Shown: in pieces, positions 3,273 through 36,334 of the stretch
Numbering within the stretch: position 1 is the stretch's first letter
How the letters are laid out: the number at the start of each line of letters is the position of its first letter
Source of the DNA: an uncultured Hyphomicrobiales bacterium
GTDB taxonomy: Bacteria > Pseudomonadota > Alphaproteobacteria > Rhizobiales > Aestuariivirgaceae
Assembly: GCA_902826365.1 (NCBI GenBank)
Contig: CADEEO010000002.1
Span: 17,316 to 59,236, forward strand
Length of the DNA: 41,921 nt
Direction of reading: 5' to 3'
The notes under the pieces: model-generated
Seen by the model: only the letters and a program-made list of their open reading frames with translations
Databases searched by the model: none
Told to the model about the DNA's origin: nothing
Made by a program: the position numbers and the translations under genes

Positions 3273-4406
3273 ATGGCCTTGAGTTGGAGATTTTCGGTTC
3301 TGGGGGACCGCCACCGCGCTTTGGGTTCAAAGCTCGAAGATTGGTCCGGCATGGGCACGGCCTGGACCTATGACAAGGACATTTACGCCGAGCACATCGC
3401 AGTGCGCACCAAGGCGGGCCTCATGGATGTCTCCGGCCTCAAGAAGGTGCATCTCGTGGGGCCGCACGCCATCAACGTGCTGGAATATATCACCACCCGC
3501 GACATGACGAAGATTTATCCCGGCCGCTCGGTCTATGCCTGCATGCTGAATGACCGCGGCCATTTCACCGATGACTGCATCGTCTACCGCACCGGGCCCA
3601 ATTCCTGGATGCTGGTGCATGGCTCGGGCTCCGGCCATGAGGAAGTGGTGAAGCAGTCGCTGGGCCGCAATGTGGCGGTGCTGTTTGACGATGACCTGCA
3701 TGATCTTTCGCTGCAAGGGCCGCTGGCCGTTGATTTCCTCGCCAAGCATGTGCCCGGCATCCGCGACCTGAAATATTTCCATCATATGCAGACCACGCTG
3801 TTTGGAGCGCCAGTGATGATCTCGCGCACCGGCTATACCGGCGAGCGCGGCTATGAGATTTTCGTGCGTGGCCAGGATGCGCCGAAAGTCTGGGACACGA
3901 TCCTCGCCGAAGGCAAGTCCATGGGCATCATTCCCGTATGCTTCAGCGTGCTCGACATGCTGCGGGTGGAAAGCTACCTGCTGTTCTACCCCTACGACAA
4001 TTCCCAGATGTATCCCTTCGCGGGCGAACAGCCCGGCGATTCTCTCTGGGAATTGGGCCTCGACTTCACCGTGAGCCCCGGCAAGACGGGCTTCCGCGGC
4101 GCCGAAGAACACGCACGCCTGAAAGGCAAGGAACGCTTCAAGATTTTCGGCCTGCTGATCGAGGCCGATGGCCCTGCCGATCTCGGCGACGAGGTCTATG
4201 CCGATGGCAAGAAGGTGGGCGTCATCACCTGCCCCTGCTATTCCAAGCTCACCAAGAAATCCATGGCGATCATGCGCGTTGACGTGGCTTGTGCCAAGCA
4301 GGGCACGAAGCTGGAAGTGCGCGGCAAGAACCTGAAAGCCAAGGCTATCGCCCACACCATCAGCTTCGATGACCCGGAAAAGAAGAAGCGGAACGCGGTT
4401 GGCTGA
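3273..4406 (+). CDS. dmmD: DmmD, GcvT-like tetrahydrofolate-binding subunit of dimethylamine oxidation
   Basis: A 377-residue protein of the GcvT (aminomethyltransferase) fold. Typical elements are ISRTGYTGERGYEIF in the middle and the GKTGFRG motif later. The ATG follows an AGGGGAG ribosome-binding site. On its own it would be called a glycine-cleavage T-like protein. It is named DmmD because it starts a compact run whose other members are DmmA, DmmB and DmmC, the layout described for marine dimethylamine monooxygenase dmmDABC and the related HODM system. The presumed role is to bind tetrahydrofolate and take the formaldehyde-level carbon released by N-demethylation, giving 5,10-methylene-THF. 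It overlaps dmmA by one base (TGATG). DMSP demethylase DmdA belongs to the same fold, but the neighbours argue against it. Confidence 0.85.
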   Translation: MALSWRFSVLGDRHRALGSKLEDWSGMGTAWTYDKDIYAEHIAVRTKAGLMDVSGLKKVHLVGPHAINVLEYITTRDMTKIYPGRSVYACMLNDRGHFTDDCIVYRTGPNSWMLVHGSGSGHEEVVKQSLGRNVAVLFDDDLHDLSLQGPLAVDFLAKHVPGIRDLKYFHHMQTTLFGAPVMISRTGYTGERGYEIFVRGQDAPKVWDTILAEGKSMGIIPVCFSVLDMLRVESYLLFYPYDNSQMYPFAGEQPGDSLWELGLDFTVSPGKTGFRGAEEHARLKGKERFKIFGLLIEADGPADLGDEVYADGKKVGVITCPCYSKLTKKSMAIMRVDVACAKQGTKLEVRGKNLKAKAIAHTISFDDPEKKKRNAVG

Positions 4407-4999
4407 TGCTTGTCGTTGGAATTAAGAGTCGCCCGGTTTACAAGGGGCTGATGATTGATATTCACAGCGCGCGCCATCTCTTTGCCCTCGAGGGCGAAGG
4501 AGCCGAGGCCTTGCTGGAGCAGATCAAGTCGATGGGCAGCGGTTTTCTGGAGAAGGCGGAAATTCTCTATGTCGGCCCGGAAAATCCGGCGGGCAAACTG
4601 CGTGAATTGAAGTCTTTTGATTTCTGGACGGCGCCCACCATTCCAGTGCTTCTCAATCGCTTGAAAGCCTCGCTCCAAGCTGCACGCATGGGAACCAGGC
4701 TCTATCTCTCCGGCACGGAAGGCTTCATCGGCCAGGCCATGCAGGTGGCCCTCGACCTTGGCATTGATTTCAACTCCATCCGCACCGAACACCGGGGCTC
4801 CACCGCACGCCGCGTGCAATGCGTCCATTGCAAGGGCATTACCGACAACGTCACGACCTCGCCCTTCACCTGTTCCCACTGCGGGCTGCCGCTGTTGGTG
4901 CGCGACCATTACTCCAGGCGTTATGGCGCTTTCCAGGGCGTGAACATTGACGCGGAAGAGCCGGGCTCCGCGCCCAAGCCGGAAGTGCTGTTCCCATGA
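4406..4999 (+). CDS. dmmA: DmmA, small subunit of dimethylamine monooxygenase with Cys4 zinc-ribbon
   Basis: A 197-residue protein with an alpha/beta N-terminal part and a C-terminal treble-cysteine region: Cys139 and Cys142 (CVHC), then Cys156 and Cys159 (CSHC), a four-cysteine metal-binding ribbon. An invariant-looking stretch EHRGSTARRVQ precedes it. This arrangement matches the DmmA family, a required subunit of dimethylamine monooxygenase whose precise job is not well established. It probably helps assembly or electron transfer between DmmB and DmmC. It overlaps dmmD by 1 nt and dmmB by 4 nt (ATGA), so the subunits should be made in fixed ratio. Confidence 0.85.
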   Translation: MLVVGIKSRPVYKGLMIDIHSARHLFALEGEGAEALLEQIKSMGSGFLEKAEILYVGPENPAGKLRELKSFDFWTAPTIPVLLNRLKASLQAARMGTRLYLSGTEGFIGQAMQVALDLGIDFNSIRTEHRGSTARRVQCVHCKGITDNVTTSPFTCSHCGLPLLVRDHYSRRYGAFQGVNIDAEEPGSAPKPEVLFP

Positions 5000-5961
5000 G
5001 CATCAATACGGACATGACGGTGCGGGTGGCGGCGATCACGCAGGTGGCCGAGAAGGTGAAACGCTTCCGCCTTGAACGGGTCGATGGCGGGGAAATGCCG
5101 ATTTTTTCCGGTGGCTCCCATGTCGTCGTGGCCATGCGCGATGGCGACATTTTGAGGCGCAACACCTATTCGCTGATGTCGAGCCCCCGCGATACCTCAG
5201 CCTATGAACTCTCGATCCTGCGCGTGGAAAATTCCCGCGGCGGTTCCGCCTTCCTGCACGAGAAACTGAAAGTGGGCGATACGCTGGTGATCTCCCAGCC
5301 TGTCAATCTCTTTCCCTTCGATGTACGCGGCCGCAAGCACCTGTTCATGGCGGGCGGCATCGGCATCACGCCCTTCATGGCCATGATGGACCAGATGACC
5401 CGCGAGGATCGCTCCTTCGAGCTGCACTACGCGGTGCGCAACCGGAACCACGGCGCCTATTGGAAAGACCTGTCGGAGCGCTATGGCGCCCACCGGGTGA
5501 AAATCTATGTCGATGAGGAAAAACTTTTCATTCCCGTCGAGGACGTATTGAAGGCCCAGGCCCTTGGCACCCATCTCTATGTCTGCGGCCCTGAAGGCAT
5601 GATCAATGGCGTTCTGACCAAGGCGCGGCAACTGGGCTGGCCCGAGCAGAACCTTCATTCCGAGCGCTTCCTCGCGCCGCCGCCCGGCAAGCCCTTCCGC
5701 GCCGTGCTGAAGAAATCGAAAAAGACCATCGAGGTGCATTCGCACCAGAGTATTCTCGAGGCCGTGGAAGCGGCAGGCGTTGATGCGCCGTTCCTCTGCC
5801 GAGGGGGCGCTTGCGGCCAGTGCGAAACCAATGTCATCTCCTGCGATGGCACGCTGGAGCATAACGACCACTTTCTCGAGCCCGAGGACAAGGCCTCGGG
5901 CCGCAAGATCATGATTTGCGTATCACGGCTGAAAGGCCATGAAATTGTGCTGGATCTCTAG
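4996..5961 (+). CDS. dmmB: DmmB, FMN/FAD-NAD(P)H and [2Fe-2S] reductase subunit
   Basis: A 321-residue phthalate-dioxygenase-reductase type electron-transfer protein. Domains in order: flavin-binding ferredoxin-reductase barrel (RRNTYS near residues 54-59), nucleotide-binding domain (MAGGIGITPF at 118-127, VCGPEGM at 196-202), and a C-terminal plant-type ferredoxin with ligands Cys268, Cys273, Cys276 and Cys308. It passes electrons from NAD(P)H to the haem subunit DmmC. The order flavin-NAD-ferredoxin and the position between dmmA and dmmC fit DmmB. Vanillate demethylase reductases share the architecture but would sit beside a Rieske oxygenase, which is absent here. Confidence 0.9.
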   Translation: MSINTDMTVRVAAITQVAEKVKRFRLERVDGGEMPIFSGGSHVVVAMRDGDILRRNTYSLMSSPRDTSAYELSILRVENSRGGSAFLHEKLKVGDTLVISQPVNLFPFDVRGRKHLFMAGGIGITPFMAMMDQMTREDRSFELHYAVRNRNHGAYWKDLSERYGAHRVKIYVDEEKLFIPVEDVLKAQALGTHLYVCGPEGMINGVLTKARQLGWPEQNLHSERFLAPPPGKPFRAVLKKSKKTIEVHSHQSILEAVEAAGVDAPFLCRGGACGQCETNVISCDGTLEHNDHFLEPEDKASGRKIMICVSRLKGHEIVLDL

Positions 5962-5970
5962 GAGAACGCC

Positions 5971-7011
5971 ATGAACATCGAATTCAGACAGGAATCCTTC
6001 CGCGACGATTTCACCTTCCGGAACAGCCCGGCTGCGATCCGGCGCTTCCCCTTCCCCTTCCATGAAGACAGCTACATGTATTCGGTGAACATGGAGCCCC
6101 ATGTGAAAGGCGCGCCCGGCTCCGCCTTCGAAAGCCTCATCGACGTGGATGAGCACTATATTTCCGAGATGAGGGACCGTGAAAAAGTTCTGAAAGAAGA
6201 CCCGCTGCGCTGCCAGGCCCTGCCCCACATGATGATGGCGCAATGGGACACGCTGGAACTCCTGATGGAGCAGCAGGCGGCGGGCTACCCCGAGCATTTC
6301 TCGCTCACCAAGGACGGCGACAACTGGCACTGGATCAACAAGCCGCTGGGCATTGACCAGAAATTTGTCTTCGGTGATGTCTCGACCCTTCCCTGCGAGC
6401 CCATGGAATACATCACGCGGCAGGCGCAGGGCGATTTCTGCATCGTCGACCAGCGCGACAACAACCTGTGGATGGATGCCGGCATTGCCACGACGCAAGC
6501 CGACTGGTCACTGGATTTCGACATCGGCATGAATTTCATGGAATGGCATGGGCCCGTGCCGCTCGCCCACCAGATCGGCGTCTTCGAACGCGCCCTCAAA
6601 TTCCTCCTCAACCTGCAGCAGGGCAAGCCCGTGCGCCGCCTGAACTGGACCATGACGATCAACCCGCGCCTCGACACCAGCCCGGAAAACTATCCGAAAT
6701 GGGGCCCGGACCGCGCCACCGTGACGCCGGAAAATGTCGGCAACAAGGTGCACCTGCGCTGCGAGCTGCAAAGCCTGTGGCGCCTGCCGCGCTCCAACGC
6801 CATTCTCTTTGTCATCCGCTGCTATCTCATCAAGATGGAAGAAGTGGCAACCGTGCCGAAATGGGCCAGGCGCCTGCCCCGCGTGCTGCGCTCGCTGCCG
6901 CCCGAACTGGTCGATTACAAGGGCCTAACCCGCTACCGCCAGACCACCATTGACTGGCTTTCAAAATTCGATGACGGAGCCCCCACCAGCCCCGGCATCT
7001 TCCCCGATTGA
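5971..7011 (+). CDS. dmmC: DmmC, haem-dependent oxidative N-demethylase (DUF3445)
   Basis: A 346-residue member of DUF3445, the family of the HODM haem-dependent oxidative N-demethylase, which uses a PAS-like haem domain to demethylate dimethylamine. Hallmarks include the N-terminal RFPFPFHEDSYMYSVNMEP block, the QADWSLDFDIG segment, a conserved FMEWHGPVP stretch and the C-terminal YRQTTIDWLSKFDDG end. It is the presumed catalytic subunit converting dimethylamine to monomethylamine and formaldehyde with O2 and electrons from DmmB. The ATG at 5971 follows GGAGAAC, 9 nt after the dmmB stop. The haem ligand cannot be assigned from sequence reading alone. Confidence 0.88.
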   Translation: MNIEFRQESFRDDFTFRNSPAAIRRFPFPFHEDSYMYSVNMEPHVKGAPGSAFESLIDVDEHYISEMRDREKVLKEDPLRCQALPHMMMAQWDTLELLMEQQAAGYPEHFSLTKDGDNWHWINKPLGIDQKFVFGDVSTLPCEPMEYITRQAQGDFCIVDQRDNNLWMDAGIATTQADWSLDFDIGMNFMEWHGPVPLAHQIGVFERALKFLLNLQQGKPVRRLNWTMTINPRLDTSPENYPKWGPDRATVTPENVGNKVHLRCELQSLWRLPRSNAILFVIRCYLIKMEEVATVPKWARRLPRVLRSLPPELVDYKGLTRYRQTTIDWLSKFDDGAPTSPGIFPD

Positions 7012-7029
7012 TAATCAAGAGGAAATCCC

Positions 7030-8370
7030 ATGACACGTGTTGCAGTTATCGGCGCCGGCCCCTCAGGCCTTGCGGCGCTCCGCGCCTTCCAGTCGGCGGG
7101 CAAGAAGAAGGCCAAGATTCCCGAGATCGTTTGCTTTGAAAAGCAGAATGATTGGGGCGGGCTTTGGAACTACACCTGGCGCACCGGGCTCGATGAACAC
7201 GGCGAACCCGTGCATGGCTCCATGTACCGCTATCTCTGGTCCAACGGACCCAAGGAATGCCTGGAATTCGCCGACTACACCTTCGAGGAGCATTTCGGCA
7301 AGCCCATCGCCTCCTACCCGCCGCGCGCCGTGCTGTGGGACTATATCAAGGGCCGCGTCGAGAAGGCCAAGGTGCGGAAATGGGTGCGCTTCAATTCGCC
7401 GGTTCGCATGGTGGAATGGGACAAGAAGAAAAAGAAATTCCACATTACCGTCCATGACCGGGTGAAGGACAGGATGTACAGCGAGGAGTTCGATCATGTG
7501 ATCTGCTCCTCCGGCCACTTCTCCACCCCGCAGGTGCCCTTCTTTGAAGGCATCAACACCTTCAATGGCCGCGTCATGCATGCCCATGATTTCAGGGATG
7601 CCCTGGAATTCAAGGGCAAGGACGTGCTCATCGTCGGCCGCAGCTATTCCGCCGAGGACATCGGCTCGCAATGCTGGAAATACGGCGCGCGATCCGTGAC
7701 TGCCACCTACCGCACCAAGCCCATGGGCTTCAAATGGCCCTCGAACTTCGAGGAGCGCCCGCTGCTGCAGAAGCTGGTGAACAAGACGGCCCATTTCAAG
7801 GACGGCTCCACCAAGGAAGTCGACGCCATCATTCTTTGCACCGGCTATCAGCACCACTTCCCCTTCATGGCGGAAGACCTGCGCCTGAAAACCGCCAACC
7901 GCCTCTGGCCGCTCGGCCTCTATAAGGGCGTGGTTTGGGAGGAAAACCCAAGGCTCCACTACATTGGCATGCAGGACCAGTTCTACACCTTCAACATGTT
8001 CGACGCCCAGGCCTGGTATGCCCGTGACGTGATCCTCGGCCGCATCAAACTGCCGAAGCTTGATGCCATGAGGAAAAATTCCAAGGCCTGGCGCAAGCGC
8101 GAGGAGAAGCTTGAGAACGCCGAGCAGATGATCTGGTTCCAGGGCGACTATGTTAAGGAACTGATCGACGCCACCGACTATCCGAGCTTTGATGTGGAGA
8201 GCGTGAACAAGACCTTCCTTGAATGGGAGCACGACAAGATGCACGACATCATGGCCTACCGCAACAAGTCCTACCGCTCGCTGATGACCGGCACCATGTC
8301 GCCCGCCCACCACACGCCGTGGAAGGATGAGCTTGATGATTCCATGGAAGCCTATTTGAAGGGCCGGTAA
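7030..8370 (+). CDS. tmm: Trimethylamine monooxygenase (Tmm)
   Basis: A 446-residue bacterial flavin-containing monooxygenase. The FAD motif GAGPSG is at residues 8-13, the FMO signature FxGxxxHxxxF at 178-188, and the NADPH motif GRSYSA at 203-208. Tyr206 corresponds to the mobile active-site tyrosine (Tyr207) I recall from Roseovarius Tmm. Long identical-looking stretches ([43 protein letters not shown]) are those of Tmm, not of generic FMOs or Baeyer-Villiger enzymes. It oxidises TMA to TMA N-oxide with NADPH and O2. It follows dmmC by 18 nt with its own AGAGGAAAT ribosome-binding site. Confidence 0.93.
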
Positions 8371-8375
8371 CAATC

Positions 8376-9227
8376 ATGGCTCGCAGTTTTGTCAACAAGC
8401 TGACCGGCTCATTTTCGGAAGGTGCGGCGGAAAATCCCACTGTTGCCATGGTCGAGGCGGCCTACCGGCATCACGGCCTTGATTACCGCTACATCAACTG
8501 CGAGGTGCCGCCGGAAAAACTTGGCGATGCGGTGAAGGGCGCCCGCGCCATGGGCTGGGCCGGGTTCAACCTGTCCATTCCCCATAAGGTGAACGTCATC
8601 CCCCACCTCGACGGGCTGGGTGAATCGGCAGCCGTCATGGGAGCGGTGAACTGTGCCGTGGCTCGGGGCGGAAAGCTCATCGGCGAAAACACCGATGGCA
8701 AGGGCTTCCTTCAGTCGCTCCGCGAACTCATCGATCCCGCCGGCAAAACCATCGTGATGTTCGGTGCTGGCGGTGCCGCCCGCGCCATCGGCGTGGAACT
8801 GGCGCTGGCCGGGGCAAAACACATCACGATCGTAAACCGCGATCCCAAGCGCGGGCAAACCCTGGTTGATCTCCTGAACGGCAAGACCAAGGCGAAAGCC
8901 GAACTCGCCGTATGGAAGGGCACTTATGCGATTGCGGCTGGCGTCGATATCGTCGTCAACGCCACGTCAATCGGCCTCACGCCAGACCTCAATGCGCGGC
9001 TTGATATCGCGCTGGACAGCCTGCGCAAGGGACTGGTGGTGGCCGATGTCATCCCCAATCCGCCCCGCACCAACCTGATCAGGGATGCCGAAGCGCGGGG
9101 ATGCAAGACGCTGGATGGCCTCGGCATGCTGGTGAACCAGGGCGTGATCGGCGTAAAATACTGGACCGGCGTTGACGTGGACCCCACCGTCATGAAGCGC
9201 AAGCTCGAGGAAATATTCTCGGCCTAG
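8376..9227 (+). CDS. Shikimate dehydrogenase-like oxidoreductase with altered substrate loop
   Basis: A 283-residue AroE/YdiB-fold protein, last gene of the dmm-tmm run, only 5 nt behind tmm. The catalytic pair is kept: Lys71 in NLSIPHK and Asp107 in ENTDG. The dinucleotide motif GAGGA is at 130-134. The N-terminal S-x-S-P motif that holds the shikimate carboxylate is replaced: the aligned positions are Asn20 and Thr22 in AENPT, and the usual following His-Asn is Val-Glu. It is therefore probably not the housekeeping AroE. It may act on another hydroxylated acid, or be a regulatory or amine-related paralogue. Its place in a methylamine operon is notable but its role is unknown. Confidence 0.8.
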   Translation: MARSFVNKLTGSFSEGAAENPTVAMVEAAYRHHGLDYRYINCEVPPEKLGDAVKGARAMGWAGFNLSIPHKVNVIPHLDGLGESAAVMGAVNCAVARGGKLIGENTDGKGFLQSLRELIDPAGKTIVMFGAGGAARAIGVELALAGAKHITIVNRDPKRGQTLVDLLNGKTKAKAELAVWKGTYAIAAGVDIVVNATSIGLTPDLNARLDIALDSLRKGLVVADVIPNPPRTNLIRDAEARGCKTLDGLGMLVNQGVIGVKYWTGVDVDPTVMKRKLEEIFSA

Positions 9228-9238
9228 AGCGGAATCCC

Positions 9239-9268
9239 TTTTCCTCGCCCCGTGGGGGAGAGGGAAAA
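9239..9268. repeat. REP-like hairpin between convergent genes, possible terminator
   Basis: TTTTCCTCGCCCC-GTG-GGGGAGAGGGAAAA forms a long stem with one bulge between the AroE-like stop and the tdm stop. Its A/T outer ends and G/C core suit a bidirectional transcription end. The core (CCTC..CCCC/GGGGAGAGG) resembles short intergenic palindromes that recur in many alphaproteobacterial genomes. I see only this copy in the window. Confidence 0.5.
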
Positions 9269-9271
9269 CCC

Positions 9272-11635
9272 CTAGCTTCGCGGCTTCAGCTTTTCCGGAT
9301 CATAGTGCGCGAACTTCACGATGCGGCCGGGAAGGCGTTTCTGCATGCCGTCGAGCTTGCCGATCTCGATTTTGGTTCCAATTTCGCCGTGCAGAACATC
9401 AACCCGTGCCAGCGCGATGTTCTTGCTCAAGACCGGCGATCGCGTTGAACTGGTGACCACGCCGATTTTCGAGCGCCCCACGTAGATACTGTCGCAGTGG
9501 CCCACGGCTTCGTTGGAGTCAATTTCAAGCCCCACCAGCTTGTGCCTTGGATGCTCCTTGCGCTGGATGAGCGCCTGCTTGCCGATGAAATCATCGGTCT
9601 TGGACTTAAGCGGCACCGCGAAACCTATGCCCGCCTCAAAGGGATCGGTCTCCGAGGTGAATTCATAATTGGCGAATATCAGGCCCGCCTCGATGCGCAC
9701 CATGTCCAGCGCCTCCAAGCCCATGGGCTTCAGGCCAAATTTCTGGCCTGCCTCCCAAACCGCATCAAACACCGCAAGTGCATCCTTGGGATGGCAGAAA
9801 ATCTCATAGCCCAATTCGCCCGTATAGCCCGTGCGCGAGACGACAATGGGTGGCCCTTCAAAATGGCCTATGCGAGCCACGGCAAAGCGGAACCACTCCA
9901 ACTCGCCGATTGCCGGTTGGGCCGGCGAGGTCCAGATGATTTCCTTGAGCAGGTCGCGGCTCTTCGGCCCCTGCACCGCAATGTTGTGAAGCTGGTCCGT
10001 GGACGAGCGCACCCAGGCCTTGTAGCCCATCTTTTCCGCCTGTTGCCGCAGCCACTGGCCGCTGAATTCATCCCCGCCAATCCAGCGGAAATTGTTCTGG
10101 CCCAAGCGGAACACCGTGCCGTCATCGATCATGCCGCCGTTCTCGTAACACATGGCCGTATAAACCACCTGCCCCACCGACAGCTTGCGGATGTCGCGCG
10201 TCACGCAATACTGCAGCAGCGCTTCCGCATCAGGCCCCGTCACCTCAAACTTGCGCAGCGGTGACAAGTCCGTCACCGTCACGTTCTCGCGGCAGGCCCA
10301 ATACTCCTCAACCGGGCCGTCATTGTTGAAACGCTGCGGCAGCCAGTAACCCCGGTATTCCGTGGTGTTGCGGGTCAGGGCCGATAACCGCGGATGGAAC
10401 GCGGTTTCCTTGGTGAGGTGGGCGTCTGCGTCGGGAGTCATGCGGGTTACCACTGCTCTTGAGAATTTCTGTTTTGCGGCATAGGTGCGGATGTGAATAT
10501 CGGTGGGATCCCAGCCATTGGCGGCGTCGATGTCATCGGGGCATGATGACGACACGCACACCAGTTCGGTGAGCGCCCGCATCAGCACATAGTCGCCGGG
10601 GCGCGACCATGGCTCGTCGAGATAGAGCTGGTTCTGGTGGTTGATATTGGTGTTGTAGAAATAATTCAGCGCTTCCCAGCCCTTGCGGGGCTTCACGCCA
10701 TAGGGTGCCAGAGCGTAGTTGAAATTCTCCGTGCAGTTCACGTGTCCCGGATAGCCCATATCATCATAATAACGTGAGGTGCAGGCCAGCGCGAAGGCAT
10801 CATGGCGGCCTACCGTGTCCTGAACGATTTCCACCAGCGGCTCGAATTCCCGGTCAAAGGATTTGGAGGGAAGCCCTGGTGCCGGATAGCTGCGGCCCAA
10901 AAGCGTGCGGGTGACCGTGGCGTCAAGCGCCAGGTCAAGCCCCTTGTCAATCTTGCGCGCCGACAGGGCCTGAAAGTCCGTGCACTGACGGCCGGATACG
11001 TCGATCACCTGGATATATTCACCAGCCTTCACCACATAGGCCGAAGCGGTGGACGCCCTGATGCGGAAATCCTGCAACGGATCGGCGAGGGGTTCCGGAA
11101 GAACACTGCCCCGTTCGGCTGCTTTGCCGCTGCGGGCAATGCGCAATTCAATATCCGTGGCCGTGTCCTGGTTCCCCGGCGCCATGGCGGCCCCTGGTGC
11201 GGCAACGATCAAAATCCCGTCACGCGAGACCTTGAACTGGGCTCTCGCCCCTGCCCGCGAGCCTTCCCCAAAGAGACGCACAATATCGGCCTTGCCCAGA
11301 TCAATGTTGCGGCGCTGCAGGGCCGATTTCGTGCGCTGCGTGTTTTCACCGTCCTCTGCAAGCAGGGCTTTCAACCCTTCGCCATGGCCGGTGGCGCGTG
11401 CGCCGATTGCCGAGGCATCAAATCGCCCAGCATCGTCGCAAAAGGCTATTTCACAGGCCTGGCCGCCTTCAATATCAGTCAGGACAACGCCATCGCCAGC
11501 CTTCACCGCAACAACCGTCGAGCCCGTTCCACGCACAATGTAACGCTCAACCCCCTGGGCCAAAGTCTTGATGCCGGGGCGATAGATGAGGCTGGGCTGC
11601 GGCGCGGTTGAAAGCATGGAGTAAAACGTCACCAT
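9272..11635 (-). CDS. tdm: Trimethylamine N-oxide demethylase (Tdm): DUF1989 repeat plus GcvT-like domain
   Basis: A 787-residue protein: two DUF1989-type halves (about 20-170 and 185-385) followed by a GcvT-like tetrahydrofolate domain (about 413-780, with ISRTGYTGELGYEIF-type and FIGKQAL motifs). This is the architecture of Tdm, which converts TMAO to dimethylamine and formaldehyde; the C-terminal domain can hand formaldehyde to THF. Cys285, Cys301 and Cys365 have the same spacing (16 and 64) as the zinc cysteines 263/279/343 I recall for Methylocella silvestris Tdm, and Asp220 matches its Asp198. It is convergent with the dmm-tmm operon. Two ATGs are possible (11635 and 11617); neither has a good ribosome-binding site. 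Dimethylglycine-type GcvT fusions lack DUF1989, so they are less likely. Confidence 0.9.
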   Translation of the reverse strand: MVTFYSMLSTAPQPSLIYRPGIKTLAQGVERYIVRGTGSTVVAVKAGDGVVLTDIEGGQACEIAFCDDAGRFDASAIGARATGHGEGLKALLAEDGENTQRTKSALQRRNIDLGKADIVRLFGEGSRAGARAQFKVSRDGILIVAAPGAAMAPGNQDTATDIELRIARSGKAAERGSVLPEPLADPLQDFRIRASTASAYVVKAGEYIQVIDVSGRQCTDFQALSARKIDKGLDLALDATVTRTLLGRSYPAPGLPSKSFDREFEPLVEIVQDTVGRHDAFALACTSRYYDDMGYPGHVNCTENFNYALAPYGVKPRKGWEALNYFYNTNINHQNQLYLDEPWSRPGDYVLMRALTELVCVSSSCPDDIDAANGWDPTDIHIRTYAAKQKFSRAVVTRMTPDADAHLTKETAFHPRLSALTRNTTEYRGYWLPQRFNNDGPVEEYWACRENVTVTDLSPLRKFEVTGPDAEALLQYCVTRDIRKLSVGQVVYTAMCYENGGMIDDGTVFRLGQNNFRWIGGDEFSGQWLRQQAEKMGYKAWVRSSTDQLHNIAVQGPKSRDLLKEIIWTSPAQPAIGELEWFRFAVARIGHFEGPPIVVSRTGYTGELGYEIFCHPKDALAVFDAVWEAGQKFGLKPMGLEALDMVRIEAGLIFANYEFTSETDPFEAGIGFAVPLKSKTDDFIGKQALIQRKEHPRHKLVGLEIDSNEAVGHCDSIYVGRSKIGVVTSSTRSPVLSKNIALARVDVLHGEIGTKIEIGKLDGMQKRLPGRIVKFAHYDPEKLKPRS

Positions 11636-11637
11636 CC

Positions 11638-11674
11638 GGAGGAAATTGAACTGTCAATATCGCACAGTTCCTCC
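11638..11674 (-). promoter_or_regulatory. Nested inverted repeat upstream of tdm
   Basis: GAACTGT-N9-ACAGTTC (11648-11670), a perfect 7-bp inverted repeat, is nested in GGAGGA (11638-11643) / TCCTCC (11669-11674). On the minus strand it also contains TTGACA, a -35-like hexamer. It sits immediately before the tdm start. It may be an operator, or in RNA a hairpin next to the start codon. The N9 spacing is shared with the palindrome before dmmD, although the arms differ. Confidence 0.42.
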
Positions 11675-11715
11675 GTATGGTCGATATGCGGCCAAGTCCG
11701 TCCAAAGCGGCTGAA

Positions 11716-13335
11716 CTACTGCTCCTTGTTCAGCTTGGCCCAGATCCGGTTGAGCTCAGCCTCGACATTGGCAGCCATTGGCGGCTGCACCGCAAGGCGC
11801 TTCAACACGCTTTTCGGCGGATAAAGCCCCGGGTCGCTCAAGAGATCCGGCTCGATGAAGGGGGCCGACGTCAGGACCGGATTGGCATATTGCAGGAAAT
11901 TGGTGTTGGCGGCGGCCACCTCCGGCTTCAGCATGTAATTGAGCAGTTTGTAGGCTCCCTCCTTGTTCTGCGACTTGGTGGGGATGACGATGAGGTCGAA
12001 CCAGAGCTGGCTGCCTTCCTTGGGAACGTTATAGACGATGGTCCCCTTGCCATTTTCCTTGGCCGTGTCGCGGGCGGCGAATATGTCTCCCGAGTAGCCC
12101 CAGGTAACGCAATACTTGCCCTCGGCCAGGCTGTCGATGTAGCTTTCCGCCGAAACAACCGTGATATAGTCGGAGACCTTCGCGAGGGCCACTTCCACCG
12201 CCTCCAGGTCGGTGATGCCGATGTTCTTCATGTCGCCGCCCAGATAGGCAACGAAGGCGGGCAGAACATCAATCGGCTCGTCAATCAGCGCGATGCCGCA
12301 TTTTGACAGGTCGGCGGCGATCGCCGGATCGAGGATGAGGGCCATCGAGTTGAGCGGCGCATCGGGCCTGATCGCCCTGACCTTTTCCCTGTTCACGCCA
12401 AGTCCCACCGTGCCCCACATGTAAGGCACCGAGTGGGAATTGTTGGGGTCCAGGACCTCGGTATAGGTAAGCGCCGCCGGGTCAAGGAATTCCGCATTGG
12501 GAATTTTCGCCCGGTCGAGCACTTCAACTGCGTTCTGCTCCTCAAGAACCTGGCGCATCTGCGCGCCGGACTGGATCATCACGTCATATCTGTCGGAACC
12601 CTGATGCAGCAGCTCCTTGGTTTCCGACGTGCTGCCAAACACTTCGTGCACGATTCGGATATTGGTTTCCTTCTCGAAATTCCCCAAGGTATCCGGATTC
12701 ATGTAATCCGGCCAGTTGAGCATGTGCACCGTGCTGACCGGCTTCTTGTCGGCAAAGTTCAAGGCGCGGATGACGTTTTGAAAGGTGTTGCGGGTAAGCA
12801 GGCCCGTGACATTCATGCCGTTGTCTTCCTGGAAAATCTCGATGGCCGAAAGCGTGGCGGGCCCAAACACGCCATCGGAAGGTCCGGGCGCGTAGTTGAG
12901 CTTCTTCAGCGCATCTTGCGCCTGGCGCACTTCGGCGGGCTCCACCACAAGGCTCTGGCCATCGGCGCTTCCCGTGGCCCAGCCCTCCTTGGTCCATGCG
13001 GCGGTAAACAGCGAACGCATGATTTTTTCGGACGTCATGCCGTCGGCCGGGGTATTTGTCGCCTGAAGATGGGTAACAAGCGCCGCTGTCGTGGCGGCAT
13101 CCATCTGGCGCGTCATGTTTTCCGGCTTGAGATAGCCCAGCCGCCGCAGCAGGCGCTGGATTGTGGATACTTCCTGGGCGCCAAGGTTTGCAAGGCCGTC
13201 AAGGCCCGCATCCGCCAAGTCAGTTTGCGCGGAAGGCGCGGAAATCATGCCCTGTGCATGGAGCGGCGCTGTGCCCGCAACATGCAAGGAAACAGCGCAG
13301 GCTAGGGATAGAGATATGGCAAAGCGTTTCTTCAC
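11716..13335 (-). CDS. Fusion of two peptidoglycan-binding domains with a PotD/PotF-like solute-binding domain
   Basis: A 539-residue exported protein. The signal peptide covers about residues 1-28 (hydrophobic core, HAQ cleavage region). Two PG_binding_1-like repeats follow: about 54-112 (VSTIQRLLRRLGYLKPENMTR...) and 134-190 (VRQAQDALKKLNY..GPSDGVFGPATLSAIE). From about 200 it is a type 2 periplasmic binding domain of the spermidine/putrescine family: VHMLNWPDYMNPDTLGNFEKE near its start, VPYMWGTVGLGVNREKV in the middle, and CVTWGYSGDIFAA near residue 405. Such receptors normally have no wall-binding modules and are linked to ABC permeases, which are absent here. Its only close neighbour is the FGE-like gene 34 nt upstream. 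It may sense or sequester a polyamine-like ligand at the cell wall. Confidence 0.8.
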   Translation of the reverse strand: MKKRFAISLSLACAVSLHVAGTAPLHAQGMISAPSAQTDLADAGLDGLANLGAQEVSTIQRLLRRLGYLKPENMTRQMDAATTAALVTHLQATNTPADGMTSEKIMRSLFTAAWTKEGWATGSADGQSLVVEPAEVRQAQDALKKLNYAPGPSDGVFGPATLSAIEIFQEDNGMNVTGLLTRNTFQNVIRALNFADKKPVSTVHMLNWPDYMNPDTLGNFEKETNIRIVHEVFGSTSETKELLHQGSDRYDVMIQSGAQMRQVLEEQNAVEVLDRAKIPNAEFLDPAALTYTEVLDPNNSHSVPYMWGTVGLGVNREKVRAIRPDAPLNSMALILDPAIAADLSKCGIALIDEPIDVLPAFVAYLGGDMKNIGITDLEAVEVALAKVSDYITVVSAESYIDSLAEGKYCVTWGYSGDIFAARDTAKENGKGTIVYNVPKEGSQLWFDLIVIPTKSQNKEGAYKLLNYMLKPEVAAANTNFLQYANPVLTSAPFIEPDLLSDPGLYPPKSVLKRLAVQPPMAANVEAELNRIWAKLNKEQ

Positions 13336-13369
13336 GGTGGCGGACTCCCCTTTTTGCAGATTTTTTATT

Positions 13370-14926
13370 TCACGGCTGCGACCTGGCCACCCGGAATCCT
13401 ATGGAATTGCGGGCCTTGACCGAAGTTTCCCAACCCCGGACTGCGGCGCGGTAGGCAACCGCGTCTCCCACCCAAACCCCATCCGGCAGGAAGCGGAATT
13501 CGCTGGCCCATGAACCGCCCCGCAAGACGTGGTACTTGCAGGTCTCGGTATTCGCCGCTTCGGTGTCGTAAGTGGCGCGCCAGCAATCGGACACCCACTC
13601 CCAGACATTGCCATGCATGTCAAAGATGCCGAGCGAGTTGGGGCTCAGCGAGCCCGCCGGGGCTGTGTAGAGAAAGCCGTCATTGCAGCCAACGCCAGCC
13701 CAGATGGTCTCCCGCATTTTGCCTGCCACATCGGAGGAGTTTCCATAGGCGCAGGCAAGCTGCACATTGCTGCCAACCTCGGTAATTCCGCCCCGGCTCG
13801 ACTTGTTCCCGCCCTGCGAGGCCAGTTCCCACTCCGCTTCTGTAGGCAGCCGGTAGGTGAAGCCCGTAATTTTCGACAGCCACGGCAGATATTGCTGGCT
13901 GATATCATTGTAGGACACGTGAATCACCGGATGGCGCCCGCGTCCCCAGCCATCATCGGCCGGTGAAGCCTTGCAGCCACCCCCGTCAATGCAGTGCTGC
14001 CAGTCATCGAAGGTTATTTCATACCGCCCGATGGCAAAGGGCTTGTCGACACTCACCTTCTTGGCATCAACGGGGTTTATCGCCTGCTGCGCCGTGCCGC
14101 GGCCCTCGGGGCCAACCATGAATTCGCCCGGCGCAATCGATACAAGTTCGGGGCATGTGTCGCAGTCCCGGAAAATCATCCCTTCCTTCTGCTGGGAATC
14201 GGCAAGGCCCGGCTGTTCAATCACCGAAGGGGCGTTTTTCAGGGTTGTGAGATCGGGAACGGGCACGGCCGCCACTGCCACTTGTTGTGCCACAGGCGGA
14301 GGCTCGGGGGCTGAAGCTTGCGCGGTGGCCTGGGGTTCTGGTTCAGCAGCTGCCTCCACTTCTGCCTGGGGCGCGGGTTCTGGTTCAATATCAGCGGGTG
14401 CAGCCTGCGCCTCCTGCTGGGGTTCAGGCTCAAGTTCAACGGCGGGAGATGTGATTTGCTCATCCGCTTGCTCCTCGGGTTCAGGCGCTGCCGGGGCAAC
14501 TTCCACTTCCGCTTCGCCGGGCGGTGGTGCTGCCGTTTCAGATTCTGCGGGAGCCTGCTGAACCGCTGCAGTTTGTTCATTGGCGGCGGTATCAAGTTCA
14601 GGCGGAGGCTGGACTCCAGCGGCCAGGTCCGGCTCGGTCTTGCTTTCGGGAGCAGGGCTTGCAATCTGCTTAAAAACATCCGCAACCGCGTGCTTGATAT
14701 AGCCATCCGACATGTAATCACGCACGCCGACAAAAGCCGCGCCGGCGATCACCAGCTGCGCCGCGATGAATGTAAAGAGATTGCGCCTGAACTTCCGCCG
14801 CCGCAAACGTTCGGCGCGCGTCGCCTGCGCATTTCTCAACCGCTGCGAACGCGGCGCCAAAGGCAAAGGTGTATCCGTTTGTGGAGCAGACAAATCATCA
14901 ACCGCATTGTTGAACCGGGGTGCCAC
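13370..14926 (-). CDS. Membrane-anchored formylglycine-generating-enzyme-like (SUMF1) protein
   Basis: A 518-residue protein: basic cytoplasmic N-terminus rich in Arg, one membrane segment (about 49-68), a long Pro/Glu/Ala/Gln low-complexity linker (about 100-235), and a periplasmic FGE-sulfatase domain from about 258. The latter begins with MVGPEGRGT, contains RLPTEAEWELA and GNVWEWVSDCW, and ends in VLRGGSWASEF and SIGFRVARS. SUMF1-like domains include true formylglycine generators, EgtB and many proteins of unknown activity; the copper-site cysteine pair of FGE is not obvious. There is no ATG: the GTG at 14926 is the only start near the frame opening, with a TTG 33 nt later as an alternative. 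It forms an operon with the downstream fusion receptor. Confidence 0.8.
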   Translation of the reverse strand: MAPRFNNAVDDLSAPQTDTPLPLAPRSQRLRNAQATRAERLRRRKFRRNLFTFIAAQLVIAGAAFVGVRDYMSDGYIKHAVADVFKQIASPAPESKTEPDLAAGVQPPPELDTAANEQTAAVQQAPAESETAAPPPGEAEVEVAPAAPEPEEQADEQITSPAVELEPEPQQEAQAAPADIEPEPAPQAEVEAAAEPEPQATAQASAPEPPPVAQQVAVAAVPVPDLTTLKNAPSVIEQPGLADSQQKEGMIFRDCDTCPELVSIAPGEFMVGPEGRGTAQQAINPVDAKKVSVDKPFAIGRYEITFDDWQHCIDGGGCKASPADDGWGRGRHPVIHVSYNDISQQYLPWLSKITGFTYRLPTEAEWELASQGGNKSSRGGITEVGSNVQLACAYGNSSDVAGKMRETIWAGVGCNDGFLYTAPAGSLSPNSLGIFDMHGNVWEWVSDCWRATYDTEAANTETCKYHVLRGGSWASEFRFLPDGVWVGDAVAYRAAVRGWETSVKARNSIGFRVARSQP

Positions 14927-14934
14927 CCCCGGTT
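14913..14934. repeat. Hairpin across the start of the FGE-like gene
   Basis: AACCGGGG-TGCCAC-CCCCGGTT is a perfect 8-bp inverted repeat with a 6-nt loop, centred on the putative GTG start codon (14924-14926, minus strand). In the mRNA it would bury the start codon. It could control translation, or it could mean translation begins at the downstream TTG. Confidence 0.5.
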
Positions 14935-15028
14935 ATTTCTGTCGCTCGTCCCGTTGAAAAATATTAGGCTTCAATGCGGCGTAATTGTGACCCGCCTGCC
15001 TCAGTTGCCGTTAACCATTTCTTGGGGA

Positions 15029-15056
15029 AAAATTAATCCGTATACGAATTAATTTT
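15029..15056. promoter_or_regulatory. 28-bp near-perfect palindrome, likely GntR-type operator
   Basis: AAAATTAAT-CC-GTATAC-GA-ATTAATTTT is symmetrical except for one base pair. The core GTATAC inside an A+T-rich palindrome is typical of operators bound by GntR (FadR/FCD) regulators. It lies 123 bp before the TakP-like receptor start and about 100 bp before the divergent FGE-like gene, so it could control either or both. No gntR gene is present in the window. Confidence 0.65.
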
Positions 15057-15154
15057 GCGGAAGCCGCGATAGGCCGCTTTTCGGCCCTGCCAGACAGCTG
15101 ATTCCCGGCATTTGCCCTCGCCGGAATCTTCGGTTAGGCTTTGCCCAGCGATAA

Positions 15155-16276
<1,122 letters not shown>

Positions 16277-20512: not shown

Positions 20513-21673
20513 TCACTGCAACGGTACGCAGCGTTGGCGCTTGCGGCTGAACTCTGTTCCTTCCGGGCAGGTCTTCGGAACATTCAACTGGATCGGTTCG
20601 CATTGCTTGGTCTTCGGATTGTACTCAAGATCCTGCTTGCACTTGACTGACGGAGGCTGTGGCGTCGGAACGCGCTCGCACTCGTTCGTTTGCGGGTTCA
20701 GCTTGGCGCCCTCCGGGCAGTCCGGCTCATCATCCGGGATGCGTTCGCACTGCTCGGGATTGTTGGGATTTCGGACAAGGCCCTGCGGGCAAGGCGCATG
20801 GCATTTTCCGCGGATCACTTCATAGCCTTCCGGGCATGAGGGCGGGCTGCAAACCCCGCGCAAATTCGGATAGCTGCCATCCTCGCAGCGCGGCGGCAGG
20901 CAATAGCCGTAGGCATTGCGCGTCGTGCCCTGCTCGCAAACCGGCACGCATTGCTGGCGGAAATTCTCAAACCCATAGGGGCAGGTTTCCGGCGGCGGCA
21001 GGCAGCGCGTGGGGTGATAGATATCGCGCGTGAAGCCTTGCGGGCACGATGGCAGGCATATCCACTTGTAGTCATCCGGCCAGTCGCCGCCGGGCACACA
21101 GGCGCCGGTCCGTTCGTTGCGCTGGGAGCCGTCAGGGCAGGCCCTGTCATAATAGCTGCGGCACAGGCCGCTTTCAGCCAGATATGTTCCCTCCGGGCAG
21201 TCCGGCGAACACCGGCCGGTTTCCTGTGAATAACTCAGCCCTTCTGGGCAATTGTCGGGAGTGGACGTGCTGCGGTCGGGCAGGCATTCTTCAGGATTGC
21301 TAAGATTGCGGTGATAGCCTTGCGGGCAGCCCGGCAGCGGCACTTGCTCATAACCTTCCGGACAGCCGTGATGGCCGGGCGGCAGGCATAGGCCTGGATA
21401 GCCGGGATAGCGCAAATAACCCGTGGGACATTCAGGCAGGCAGTAGTCATCGTAAATCGTGTAGCCCGCCGGGCAGCTCGGCCCCGAATCGCAGCTGCCA
21501 CAAGTATTGCAGGTGTTGCGTGAGGGCTTCGCCTGCACTTCGCAGGTTTGCGGCGCCGATGATTGCTCGGCCCGCGCAGCGGTTGGGGACAAGGCGCCCA
21601 TGAGAATGGCAAGGCAGGCGATCAGGACGGAACGATAGACTGCCGATTGCAAGCAGAGCTTCGCATGTGTCAC
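20513..21673 (-). CDS. Secreted cysteine-rich protein with about 16 CPxG repeats
   Basis: A 386-residue exported protein. GTG 21673 is taken as the start because GGAGA lies 8 nt upstream and a signal peptide follows (hydrophobic core, cleavage near ARA-EQ, residue about 36). The mature chain is almost entirely degenerate units of about 15-25 residues of the form C-P-x-G-(Y/F/x)-(8-13 residues)-C-x-P; I count about 16, for example SCPQGFTRD...RCLPP and SCPEGYEVIRGKCHA. Two cysteines per unit suggest a string of small disulfide-locked hairpins in the periplasm or outside the cell. I do not recognise the family and see no catalytic motif. Confidence 0.8.
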   Translation of the reverse strand: MTHAKLCLQSAVYRSVLIACLAILMGALSPTAARAEQSSAPQTCEVQAKPSRNTCNTCGSCDSGPSCPAGYTIYDDYCLPECPTGYLRYPGYPGLCLPPGHHGCPEGYEQVPLPGCPQGYHRNLSNPEECLPDRSTSTPDNCPEGLSYSQETGRCSPDCPEGTYLAESGLCRSYYDRACPDGSQRNERTGACVPGGDWPDDYKWICLPSCPQGFTRDIYHPTRCLPPPETCPYGFENFRQQCVPVCEQGTTRNAYGYCLPPRCEDGSYPNLRGVCSPPSCPEGYEVIRGKCHAPCPQGLVRNPNNPEQCERIPDDEPDCPEGAKLNPQTNECERVPTPQPPSVKCKQDLEYNPKTKQCEPIQLNVPKTCPEGTEFSRKRQRCVPLQ

Positions 21674-34798: not shown

Positions 34799-36334
34799 TC
34801 AGTGCGGTTTTCCTGCCAGTTCGCGTTTTCGCCGGGCCATGTAATCCTTGAGGGCGTCGTCAATCGCCGGGTCAATCGCCGGTTGTTCATACTCGGCAAG
34901 CATCTTTTTCCAGATTGCATTGGCCCGGGAATAGGCATCGACCTTGCCCTTTTCCACCCAGGAATCGTGATTGTCCCAGTTCGAAAGCAGCGGCGCATAG
35001 AAGGCGTGCTCGTAGCGTTCAATGGTGTGCGCCGTGCCGAAGAAATGCCCGGCCGGGCCCACATCGCGGATGGCATCCAGGGCCAGCGTGGCAGTTGAAA
35101 CCTCAAACGGCTCAAAATAGGCCGCCATCATTTGCAGCATTTCCGCATCGACGATGAGCTTTTCAAAGGATGCCGTGAGGCCGCCGCCAAGCCAGCCCGC
35201 CGCATGCAGCACAAGATTGGCCCCGCCCATGAGGCAGCCCCACAGCGACATGGCGCTTTCATAGGCCGCTTGCGCATCCACATCATTGGCCGCCGTTACG
35301 TTGCTGGAGCGGAAGGGCACGCCGATATGCCGGGCAAGCTGGCCGGAAGCCTGCGCCGCTTGCGTGTATTCCGGCGTGCCGAATGCCGGCGCGCCAGATT
35401 TCATGTCCACATTGGAGGTGAAGCCACCATACATCACCGGAACGCCGGGGCGAATGATCTGGCACAGCGCAATGCCCGCCATGGCTTCCGCGTGTTGCTG
35501 CGTCAGGGCCCCGGCAATCGTCACCGGCGACATGGCGCCAGCCAACGTAAATGGAGTGATGACATTGCACTGGCCATGCTCCGCAAAGGTCATCAATCCT
35601 TCCGCCATGGGAATGTCGAGCTGCAGCGGCGAATTGGTATTGATGATGCAGGTATGAACCGGCGTATCGATAAGCTGCTCGCGGGTTTTTCCCAGCGCGA
35701 TGGCCGCCATCTCCAACCCGTCAATGGCGCGTTCGCGGCCCAGTCCCTGCGGCTGCCAGTTCTTGTCCATCAGCGTGATCTCGGCGTAGTGCAGGTCAAG
35801 ATGACGCGTCTCGGCCGGAAGATCGAGCGCCTCGAAGGGTCCGCCGCCCTCCTGATGAATGATGTTGAGCGACTGGATCAGCTTGATGTAATCGCACATC
35901 TCCTCATAGGTGCCGGCCCGCCTGCCCTTGTCGCGGTCCATCACATAGGCGGGGCCGCCCACCGACGAGAGAATGAAATTGCGCCCGCCGACCTTGAGGT
36001 TGCGGTCAGGATTGCGCGCCGCGAGAGTGAATTCAAAGGGCGCCTTCTTGACCAGTTCGGTGATCATGGCGCGGTCAAAACGCACTCGCATATCGCTTTC
36101 ATCGATAGCCGCGCCTGCTGATTTATAGTAAGCCCGCGCCCGGGGTTCCAAAACCCGCATGCCGATTTCCTCAAGCACCGTGAGCGCCGCGTTGTGAATG
36201 GCGGCGACGTTGTCAGCGCTCAGGATTTCAATCGGCGCATAGGGCCGCGACAGTTGTTTCCATGGGATCTGGATAATGCCGCCCACTTGGCGTTGGGGGC
36301 GGCCAACTCTGCGGCGTTCGCGTGGCTCAGTCAT
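34799..36334 (-). CDS. MttB-family (non-pyrrolysine) methyltransferase
   Basis: A 511-residue member of the trimethylamine methyltransferase MttB superfamily. It is read without an in-frame amber codon, so it is not a pyrrolysine enzyme. ATG 36334 has GGGAG 9 nt upstream and overlaps the stop of the flavoprotein gene by 8 nt. Typical barrel blocks are a long run ending FAEHGQCNVITPF, VPVMYGGFTSNVDM and HAAGWLGGGLTASFEKL. Non-Pyl relatives such as glycine-betaine methyltransferase MtgB move a methyl group from a quaternary amine to a corrinoid protein. No corrinoid protein or activase is in the window. The family also contains many uncharacterised aerobic members. Confidence 0.87.
   Translation of the reverse strand: MTEPRERRRVGRPQRQVGGIIQIPWKQLSRPYAPIEILSADNVAAIHNAALTVLEEIGMRVLEPRARAYYKSAGAAIDESDMRVRFDRAMITELVKKAPFEFTLAARNPDRNLKVGGRNFILSSVGGPAYVMDRDKGRRAGTYEEMCDYIKLIQSLNIIHQEGGGPFEALDLPAETRHLDLHYAEITLMDKNWQPQGLGRERAIDGLEMAAIALGKTREQLIDTPVHTCIINTNSPLQLDIPMAEGLMTFAEHGQCNVITPFTLAGAMSPVTIAGALTQQHAEAMAGIALCQIIRPGVPVMYGGFTSNVDMKSGAPAFGTPEYTQAAQASGQLARHIGVPFRSSNVTAANDVDAQAAYESAMSLWGCLMGGANLVLHAAGWLGGGLTASFEKLIVDAEMLQMMAAYFEPFEVSTATLALDAIRDVGPAGHFFGTAHTIERYEHAFYAPLLSNWDNHDSWVEKGKVDAYSRANAIWKKMLAEYEQPAIDPAIDDALKDYMARRKRELAGKPH

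Follow-up and report, generated by a model that had tools for sequence, protein, structure and literature searches.

We analysed a two-gene unit in a 41,921-nucleotide stretch of DNA (the window; G000:C2:17316-59236) from an uncultured Hyphomicrobiales bacterium, whose genome assembly comprises 2.98 Mb in 238 contigs and whose closest named relative in the collections searched is an Aestuariivirga metagenome-assembled genome. The pair occurs in bacteria of soil and water that have received little study. Both genes lie on the minus strand. The first, referred to here as the FGE-partner gene, encodes a predicted inner-membrane protein with an FGE-fold head, and the second, the fusion gene, encodes a predicted secreted protein in which two peptidoglycan-binding repeats precede a PotF-like solute-binding domain. 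The unit had been proposed from the nucleotide sequence by an earlier reading (the original prediction), and both open reading frames were found where it had placed them, separated by 34 nt. The features of the unit are as follows.

11716..13335, minus strand: fusion gene, 539 aa, GTG start; secreted protein with two peptidoglycan-binding repeats and a PotF-like solute-binding domain
11728..12735, minus strand: PotF/SpuD-like solute-binding domain, fusion residues 201-536, assigned by phmmer match to SpuD 3ttm
12778..12936, minus strand: PG_binding_1 repeat 2, fusion residues 134-186, 58.8 bits
13018..13179, minus strand: PG_binding_1 repeat 1, fusion residues 53-106, 25.3 bits against a cut-off of 23
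13252..13335, minus strand: Sec-type signal peptide, fusion residues 1-28, identified by eye, without an acceptable lipobox
13336..13369, minus strand: intergenic gap of 34 nt, with a ribosome-binding-like AAGGGGAG before the fusion start (ATGGGGAG in the related genome G010)
13370..14926, minus strand: FGE-partner gene, 518 aa, GTG start, first gene of the unit; inner-membrane anchor, linker and FGE-fold head
13382..14155, minus strand: FGE-sulfatase (PF03781) head, partner residues 258-515, 1.5e-45
14192..14650, minus strand: Pro/Glu/Ala linker, partner residues about 93-245, composition kept across homologues
14723..14779, minus strand: transmembrane segment, partner residues 50-68, hydropathy 2.19, with a probable N-in/C-out topology

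When the window copy is compared with its orthologues, both genes have whole-gene ratios of nonsynonymous to synonymous substitution rates (dN/dS) of 0.09-0.15; together with the lengths of the two open reading frames and their conservation across species, this indicates that they did not arise by chance.

Architecture of the two proteins

The PG_binding_1 (PF01471) repeats of the fusion protein were scanned one at a time against the curated Pfam gathering cut-off, which both exceeded, and the N-termini of all 12 family members examined matched this family. The signal peptide, read by eye, ends in ...APLHAQ. The binding domain had been described as PotD/PotF-like; it is PotF-like rather than PotD-like, with 242 bits against the NCBIfam PotF model and 127 bits against the PotD model. 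Its top solved-structure match is SpuD (3ttm, 1.2e-77 by phmmer), SBP_bac_8 also scores over its cut-off, and residues 201-536 form a homologous two-lobed domain with 36% identity to E. coli PotF. The score of 242 bits is nevertheless below the curated PotF equivalog cut-off of 636 bits (NF007962). In orthologue comparisons dN/dS was 0.013-0.16 for repeat 2 and 0.08-0.11 for the solute-binding domain, and repeat 2 was the most constrained part of the protein in orthologues of the type found in the window (C2-type; 0.013-0.014). No description of this domain combination was found in an open-access library, and it appears to occur nowhere else in the collections searched, whereas its component parts belong to known families.

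The membrane anchor, linker and FGE-sulfatase domain of the partner were all recovered as predicted, with the exception that the linker, first put at about 130 residues, proved to be slightly longer (about 150-170 residues; 18% P, 15% E, 22% A and almost no K/R). Eleven positive charges (K/R) precede the transmembrane segment, which suggests the N-in/C-out topology. The linker is the fastest-evolving region of the partner (dN/dS 0.24-0.34, compared with 0.055-0.19 for the head), and in full-length homologues the arm measures 98-227 residues, which would in principle suffice to reach the wall. TonB-type tethers combine an N-terminal membrane anchor, a basic N-terminus, a Pro-rich periplasmic arm and a globular C-terminal head. 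The partner shares this general plan but has no TonB C-terminal domain, its head being of the FGE fold.

The head and the adjoining RDCxxC motif hold eight conserved cysteines that recur at matching spacing. No cysteine follows the RGGSW (or LGGAW) motif in any of the 10 partners aligned, whereas the FGE structure 6muj has two at this place. The head therefore appears not to be an FGE, the catalytic cysteine pair being gone, and the proposal that it is a sulfatase-activating enzyme is not supported. The nearest characterised relative is PvdO (5hha, 3.8e-31), although the partner scores 137.9 bits, below the curated PvdO equivalog cut-off of 500. A Pfam scan of the partner returned PF03781 alone, with no GGDEF/EAL, kinase or other output domain.

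Within the order, the closest relatives of the partner heads are caspase-FGE, trypsin-FGE and stand-alone FGE proteins. Like PvdO, the secreted caspase-FGE and trypsin-FGE proteins of Hyphomicrobiales carry a related FGE-sulfatase domain that lacks the FGE catalytic cysteines and mostly opens with an RDCxxCPE(M/L)-like motif. The partners differ from these secreted proteins in having a membrane anchor and a long linker and no caspase or protease domain; Peptidase_C14 was found in L050, L052, L056 and L057 but not in the window partner (P0002). The partners also form one clade (support 0.996) that excludes all examined secreted caspase-FGE, trypsin-FGE and stand-alone FGE relatives, and the partner gene adjoins a fusion gene wherever its downstream context is assembled. 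Caspase-FGE proteins are recurrent in the order Hyphomicrobiales; one of them (L056:616-3702) is an exported caspase with an FGE-sulfatase domain, a borderline PG_binding_1 match (22.7 bits, cut-off 23) and, by eye, a lysozyme-like stretch. PADLOC defence models matched neither the fusion nor the partner.

Distribution, co-inheritance and transfer of the pair

The search covered 100 relatives and subsequently, with a profile of the N-terminal module, 397 genomes from the order and 385 from the class. The fusion was present in nine of 37 Aestuariivirga genomes and in three other Hyphomicrobiales genomes, one from the same family (G049) and two from other families (G095 and G096). Among the Aestuariivirga fusion loci with an assembled upstream gene, 10 of 11 were preceded by the FGE gene, at a distance of 29-55 nt and on the same strand. 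These ten pairs are in G000 (C2 and C9), G005 (C75, C19 and C78), G007, G008, G010, G017 and G032. A gene other than FGE lies upstream of the fusion on G008 C298, a second fusion gene stands in tandem behind the first on G008 C234, and contig ends truncate the fusion genes of G012 and G026.

The flanks of the pair vary by type and include tdm with a TRAP binding protein, metallo-beta-lactamase/rhodanese with a GNAT-like gene, glpK, and a beta-eliminating lyase. Pairwise distances of the FGE heads and of the fusions were strongly correlated (r = 0.90, reached in none of 5000 permutations). The two genes form a real, co-inherited unit that recurs in several gene contexts unrelated to one another, and the fusion is not a singular event confined to one strain; the co-conservation on which the original prediction had staked itself was thus observed.

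Several candidate members were rejected. A Halomonas match (L095, residues 112-535), which at first seemed to extend into the PG-binding region, is an ordinary binding protein without the fusion. Weak matches to the N-terminal module in G189 and G216, like one in G771, are long proteins resembling Sel1-repeat plus PG-binding proteins, and in none of them is a solute-binding domain fused to the module. The module was not found in the plasmid or phage records searched, and matches in viral contigs centre on the PG-binding region, none of them spanning the fusion. Directly downstream of the FGE-less fusions of G096 (L083:1904-2401) and G049 (L084:10758-11144) is a gene for a small predicted secreted protein, with 35% identity between the two, which may be an alternative partner.

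The pair also moves between genomes as a cassette. The pairs of G005:C78 and G017:C30 are 96.9% identical over 2552 bp. The match opens where the G017 contig begins, within the FGE gene, and ends 63 nt after the stop codon of the fusion; past this point the sequences are not similar. Synonymous divergence (dS) between G005 and G017 is 0.054 and 0.057 for the two genes of the pair but 0.96 for tmm, 1.30 for aroE and 1.60 for tdm. Near-identity of the pair despite such divergence elsewhere, in a match that ends so close to the fusion stop, argues for transfer of the pair itself. Immediately behind the match, G017 has a remnant of another fusion gene, of native type: its 3' end, interrupted by an internal stop (E about 1e-7 to 1e-8). 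A resident fusion copy near tdm thus appears to have been displaced by the cassette. In G005, a partial glpK copy lies upstream of the inserted pair, which is flanked on both sides by a 46-bp direct repeat corresponding to the 3' end of glpK (L075:6026-6071 and 9442-9487), a footprint of the insertion. Both genomes are metagenome assemblies, in which misassembly is possible, but both contigs carry their own distinct flanks.

Transport context, ligand pocket and genomic setting

No PotG, PotH or PotI homologues were found beside the fusion in the window or in the fusion-bearing regions of 12 of 13 relatives. In the remaining relative, G007, a Pot-type operon that includes a binding protein of its own stands apart from the fusion, at a distance of more than 5 kb. 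By gene context the fusion is not part of an ABC importer, in agreement with the absence of a permease noted originally. A complete canonical potFGHI operon is located on contig 1 of the window genome.

Pocket residues were compared between 15 fusions and 15 correctly framed canonical controls, five further controls being excluded because they were misframed. In E. coli PotF numbering, the fusion of the window keeps W37, D39, D247, D278 and Y314, as in PotF/SpuD (1a99, 3ttm), and has the replacements E185D, R254T and F276W. In PotF, R254 pairs with D39 in a salt bridge that closes the lobes, and both residues are at least 96% conserved in 250 PotF-type proteins (PMC8666671). None of the 15 fusions has R254; W37 is kept in 11, D39 in 10, and D247 and D278 in 12 each, whereas canonical paralogues from the same and related genomes keep all five residues in 15 of 15. 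Along with the two N-terminal repeats, the lack of adjoining PotGHI and the low PotF score, the family-wide loss of R254 sets the fusion apart from PotF/SpuD. Since other amine-site residues are also lost in several copies, polyamine binding does not appear to be a family trait. The fusions of G007 and G032 share W37A, D39G and D278Q, and dN/dS of the solute-binding domain between them is 0.145. The loss of pocket residues under persisting purifying selection suggests that the fold was kept while the ligand changed or disappeared in part of the fusion family.

The window fusion lies 80 nt upstream of tdm, on the same strand, in a methylated-amine degradation cluster that includes dmmDABC-like genes, with the following genes at 3273-11635:

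3273-4406: GcvT-like (dmmD-like) gene
4406-4999: dmmA-like gene
4996-5961: reductase gene
5971-7011: HODM alpha-like gene
7030-8370: tmm, trimethylamine monooxygenase (NF058570, 851.6 bits against a cut-off of 675)
9272-11635: tdm, trimethylamine N-oxide demethylase (NF053776, 1239.6 bits against a cut-off of 1100)

This setting and the retained acidic and aromatic pocket make a cationic amine the first candidate, one that the window copy could bind; the other fusion copies sit in different settings. Directly before the tdm start, at about 11636-11685, is a palindrome (GGAGGAACTGTGCGATATTGACAGTTC...CCTCC) that is nearly identical in three species. It is operator-like and suggests that tdm has its own control. 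Inclusion of tdm in the unit was considered and rejected because of this conserved palindrome in the 80-nt gap and because most tdm-bearing Aestuariivirga genomes have other genes beside tdm. On the other side of the unit, the FGE gene is separated from a divergently oriented TRAP binding-protein gene by an intergenic region (14927-15175) with a palindrome, ATTAATnCGTATACGnATTAAT, at about 15033-15054, which is largely conserved in three species.

Elsewhere in the window, an MTTB-family gene is located at 34799-36559, and a gene at 20513-21673 encodes a predicted secreted 386-aa cysteine-rich repeat protein (CPxGY... units) with no Pfam match. A homologue of the latter is encoded about 4 kb from a second FGE-partner gene in G017:C40 (L216).

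Interpretation of the pair and alternatives

The reading we favour, at a probability of only about 0.37, is that the two genes encode one envelope module that serves as a non-transport receptor or tether, in which a wall-held PotF-fold receptor would work with a TonB-like membrane tether bearing an FGE-fold head. As judged from sequence, the exported fusion carries its two peptidoglycan-binding repeats ahead of the two-lobed receptor, and the repeats may hold the receptor on the sacculus. The inner-membrane partner, with its flexible arm, would place the FGE-fold head at the wall. Because the two genes are co-inherited and co-transferred, the head and the fusion probably act on each other, most simply by docking, which would bridge membrane and wall in a manner dependent on what the receptor lobes have bound. 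The ligands would differ among paralogues: a cationic amine could still be the ligand of the window copy but probably is not that of others. The earlier idea of a wall-tethered device rather than an uptake system accordingly stands in part, since the context is not that of an importer and the anatomy fits a wall-bound receptor with a membrane tether, while the FGE partner is not universal.

Several observations weigh against this reading. The FGE gene is absent beside the fusion in G049, G095, G096 and G008:C298, which means that in these places the fusion can do without it. The PG_binding_1 family is defined by sequence, and its members may not all bind the wall. AlphaFold2 models of the two proteins, for window and relative sequences, were poor (mean pLDDT 61 and 36). 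Finally, the partner has no recognisable cytoplasmic domain.

This last point bears also on a sensor of the NspS-MbaA kind, in which the ligand-bound fusion would dock on the membrane partner and signal inward, and it is the reason for which a receptor or tether is favoured over classical sensing. NspS, a PotD/PotF-like protein that signals instead of transporting, has its membrane partner encoded by a neighbouring gene, an arrangement also known from a rhizobial relative (PMC9993111), and the fusion shares with it both parentage and the absence of transporter genes nearby. In contrast to that system, the partner is a single-transmembrane tether with an FGE-fold head, the receptor carries peptidoglycan-binding repeats, and the cytoplasmic part of the partner, without GGDEF-EAL, kinase or other output domain, consists of about 49 poorly conserved residues. 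A PAS-GGDEF-EAL-like gene, recognised by eye, is immediately upstream of the G049 fusion on the same strand (L084:6885-8984), but it was not seen in other contexts. Inward signalling is therefore considered unlikely. A passive membrane-to-wall tether, in which the solute-binding fold has lost its ligand function and serves only as a docking surface for the FGE head, is also unlikely, if somewhat less so. It would agree with the loss of pocket residues in several paralogue lineages under purifying selection on the fold (the G007-G032 comparison), with the conserved composition of the linker and with the strong constraint on repeat 2 in C2-type copies, but the window copy retains five pocket residues, and distinct differences shared within lineages suggest new ligands and not simple decay.

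An enzymatic head, either a PvdO-like oxidase or one with other chemistry, for which the fusion would capture or present substrate at the wall, ranks between these two in probability and is likewise doubtful. The head is strongly conserved, and its best-characterised relatives include PvdO (138 bits against the PvdO model), which is required for periplasmic oxidation in pyoverdine synthesis (PMC6206403); however, the FGE cysteine pair is missing, the PvdO score is far below the cut-off, and purified PvdO was itself inactive, with no detectable cofactor (PMC6206403). Least probable of all is an orphan binding protein, concentrated at the wall, that feeds an ABC permease encoded elsewhere, such as PotGHI of contig 1, with the FGE gene as an incidental neighbour. 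The complete potFGHI operon, the main amine-binding residues kept by the window copy and its position next to tdm in the methylated-amine cluster would suit such a role, but no copy has kept R254, a receptor tightly attached to peptidoglycan would be hindered in delivering its ligand, and the co-inheritance and co-transfer of the FGE gene with the fusion argue that this gene is not incidental.

A broader form of the receptor/tether reading is more speculative than the module itself. It is possible, though doubtful, that these proteins constitute a mobile and diversifying family of wall-anchored PotF-fold receptors, each with its own periplasmic ligand, which they report or hold via a dedicated FGE-fold co-receptor on a membrane tether. 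Such an envelope recognition system, assembled from transporter and FGE-fold components, would be neither transport nor known two-component signalling. The pair would be a clean case of a transporter-type binding protein that was taken out of transport, equipped with peptidoglycan-binding domains and matched with a membrane partner of its own; it would likewise exemplify an envelope module of two genes that is passed between genomes as a cassette. Paralogues with different pockets would form a natural series in which to look for the ligands of such receptors, and the FGE-fold head, which is common in Hyphomicrobiales and whose role there is mostly unassigned, would gain a testable binding partner.

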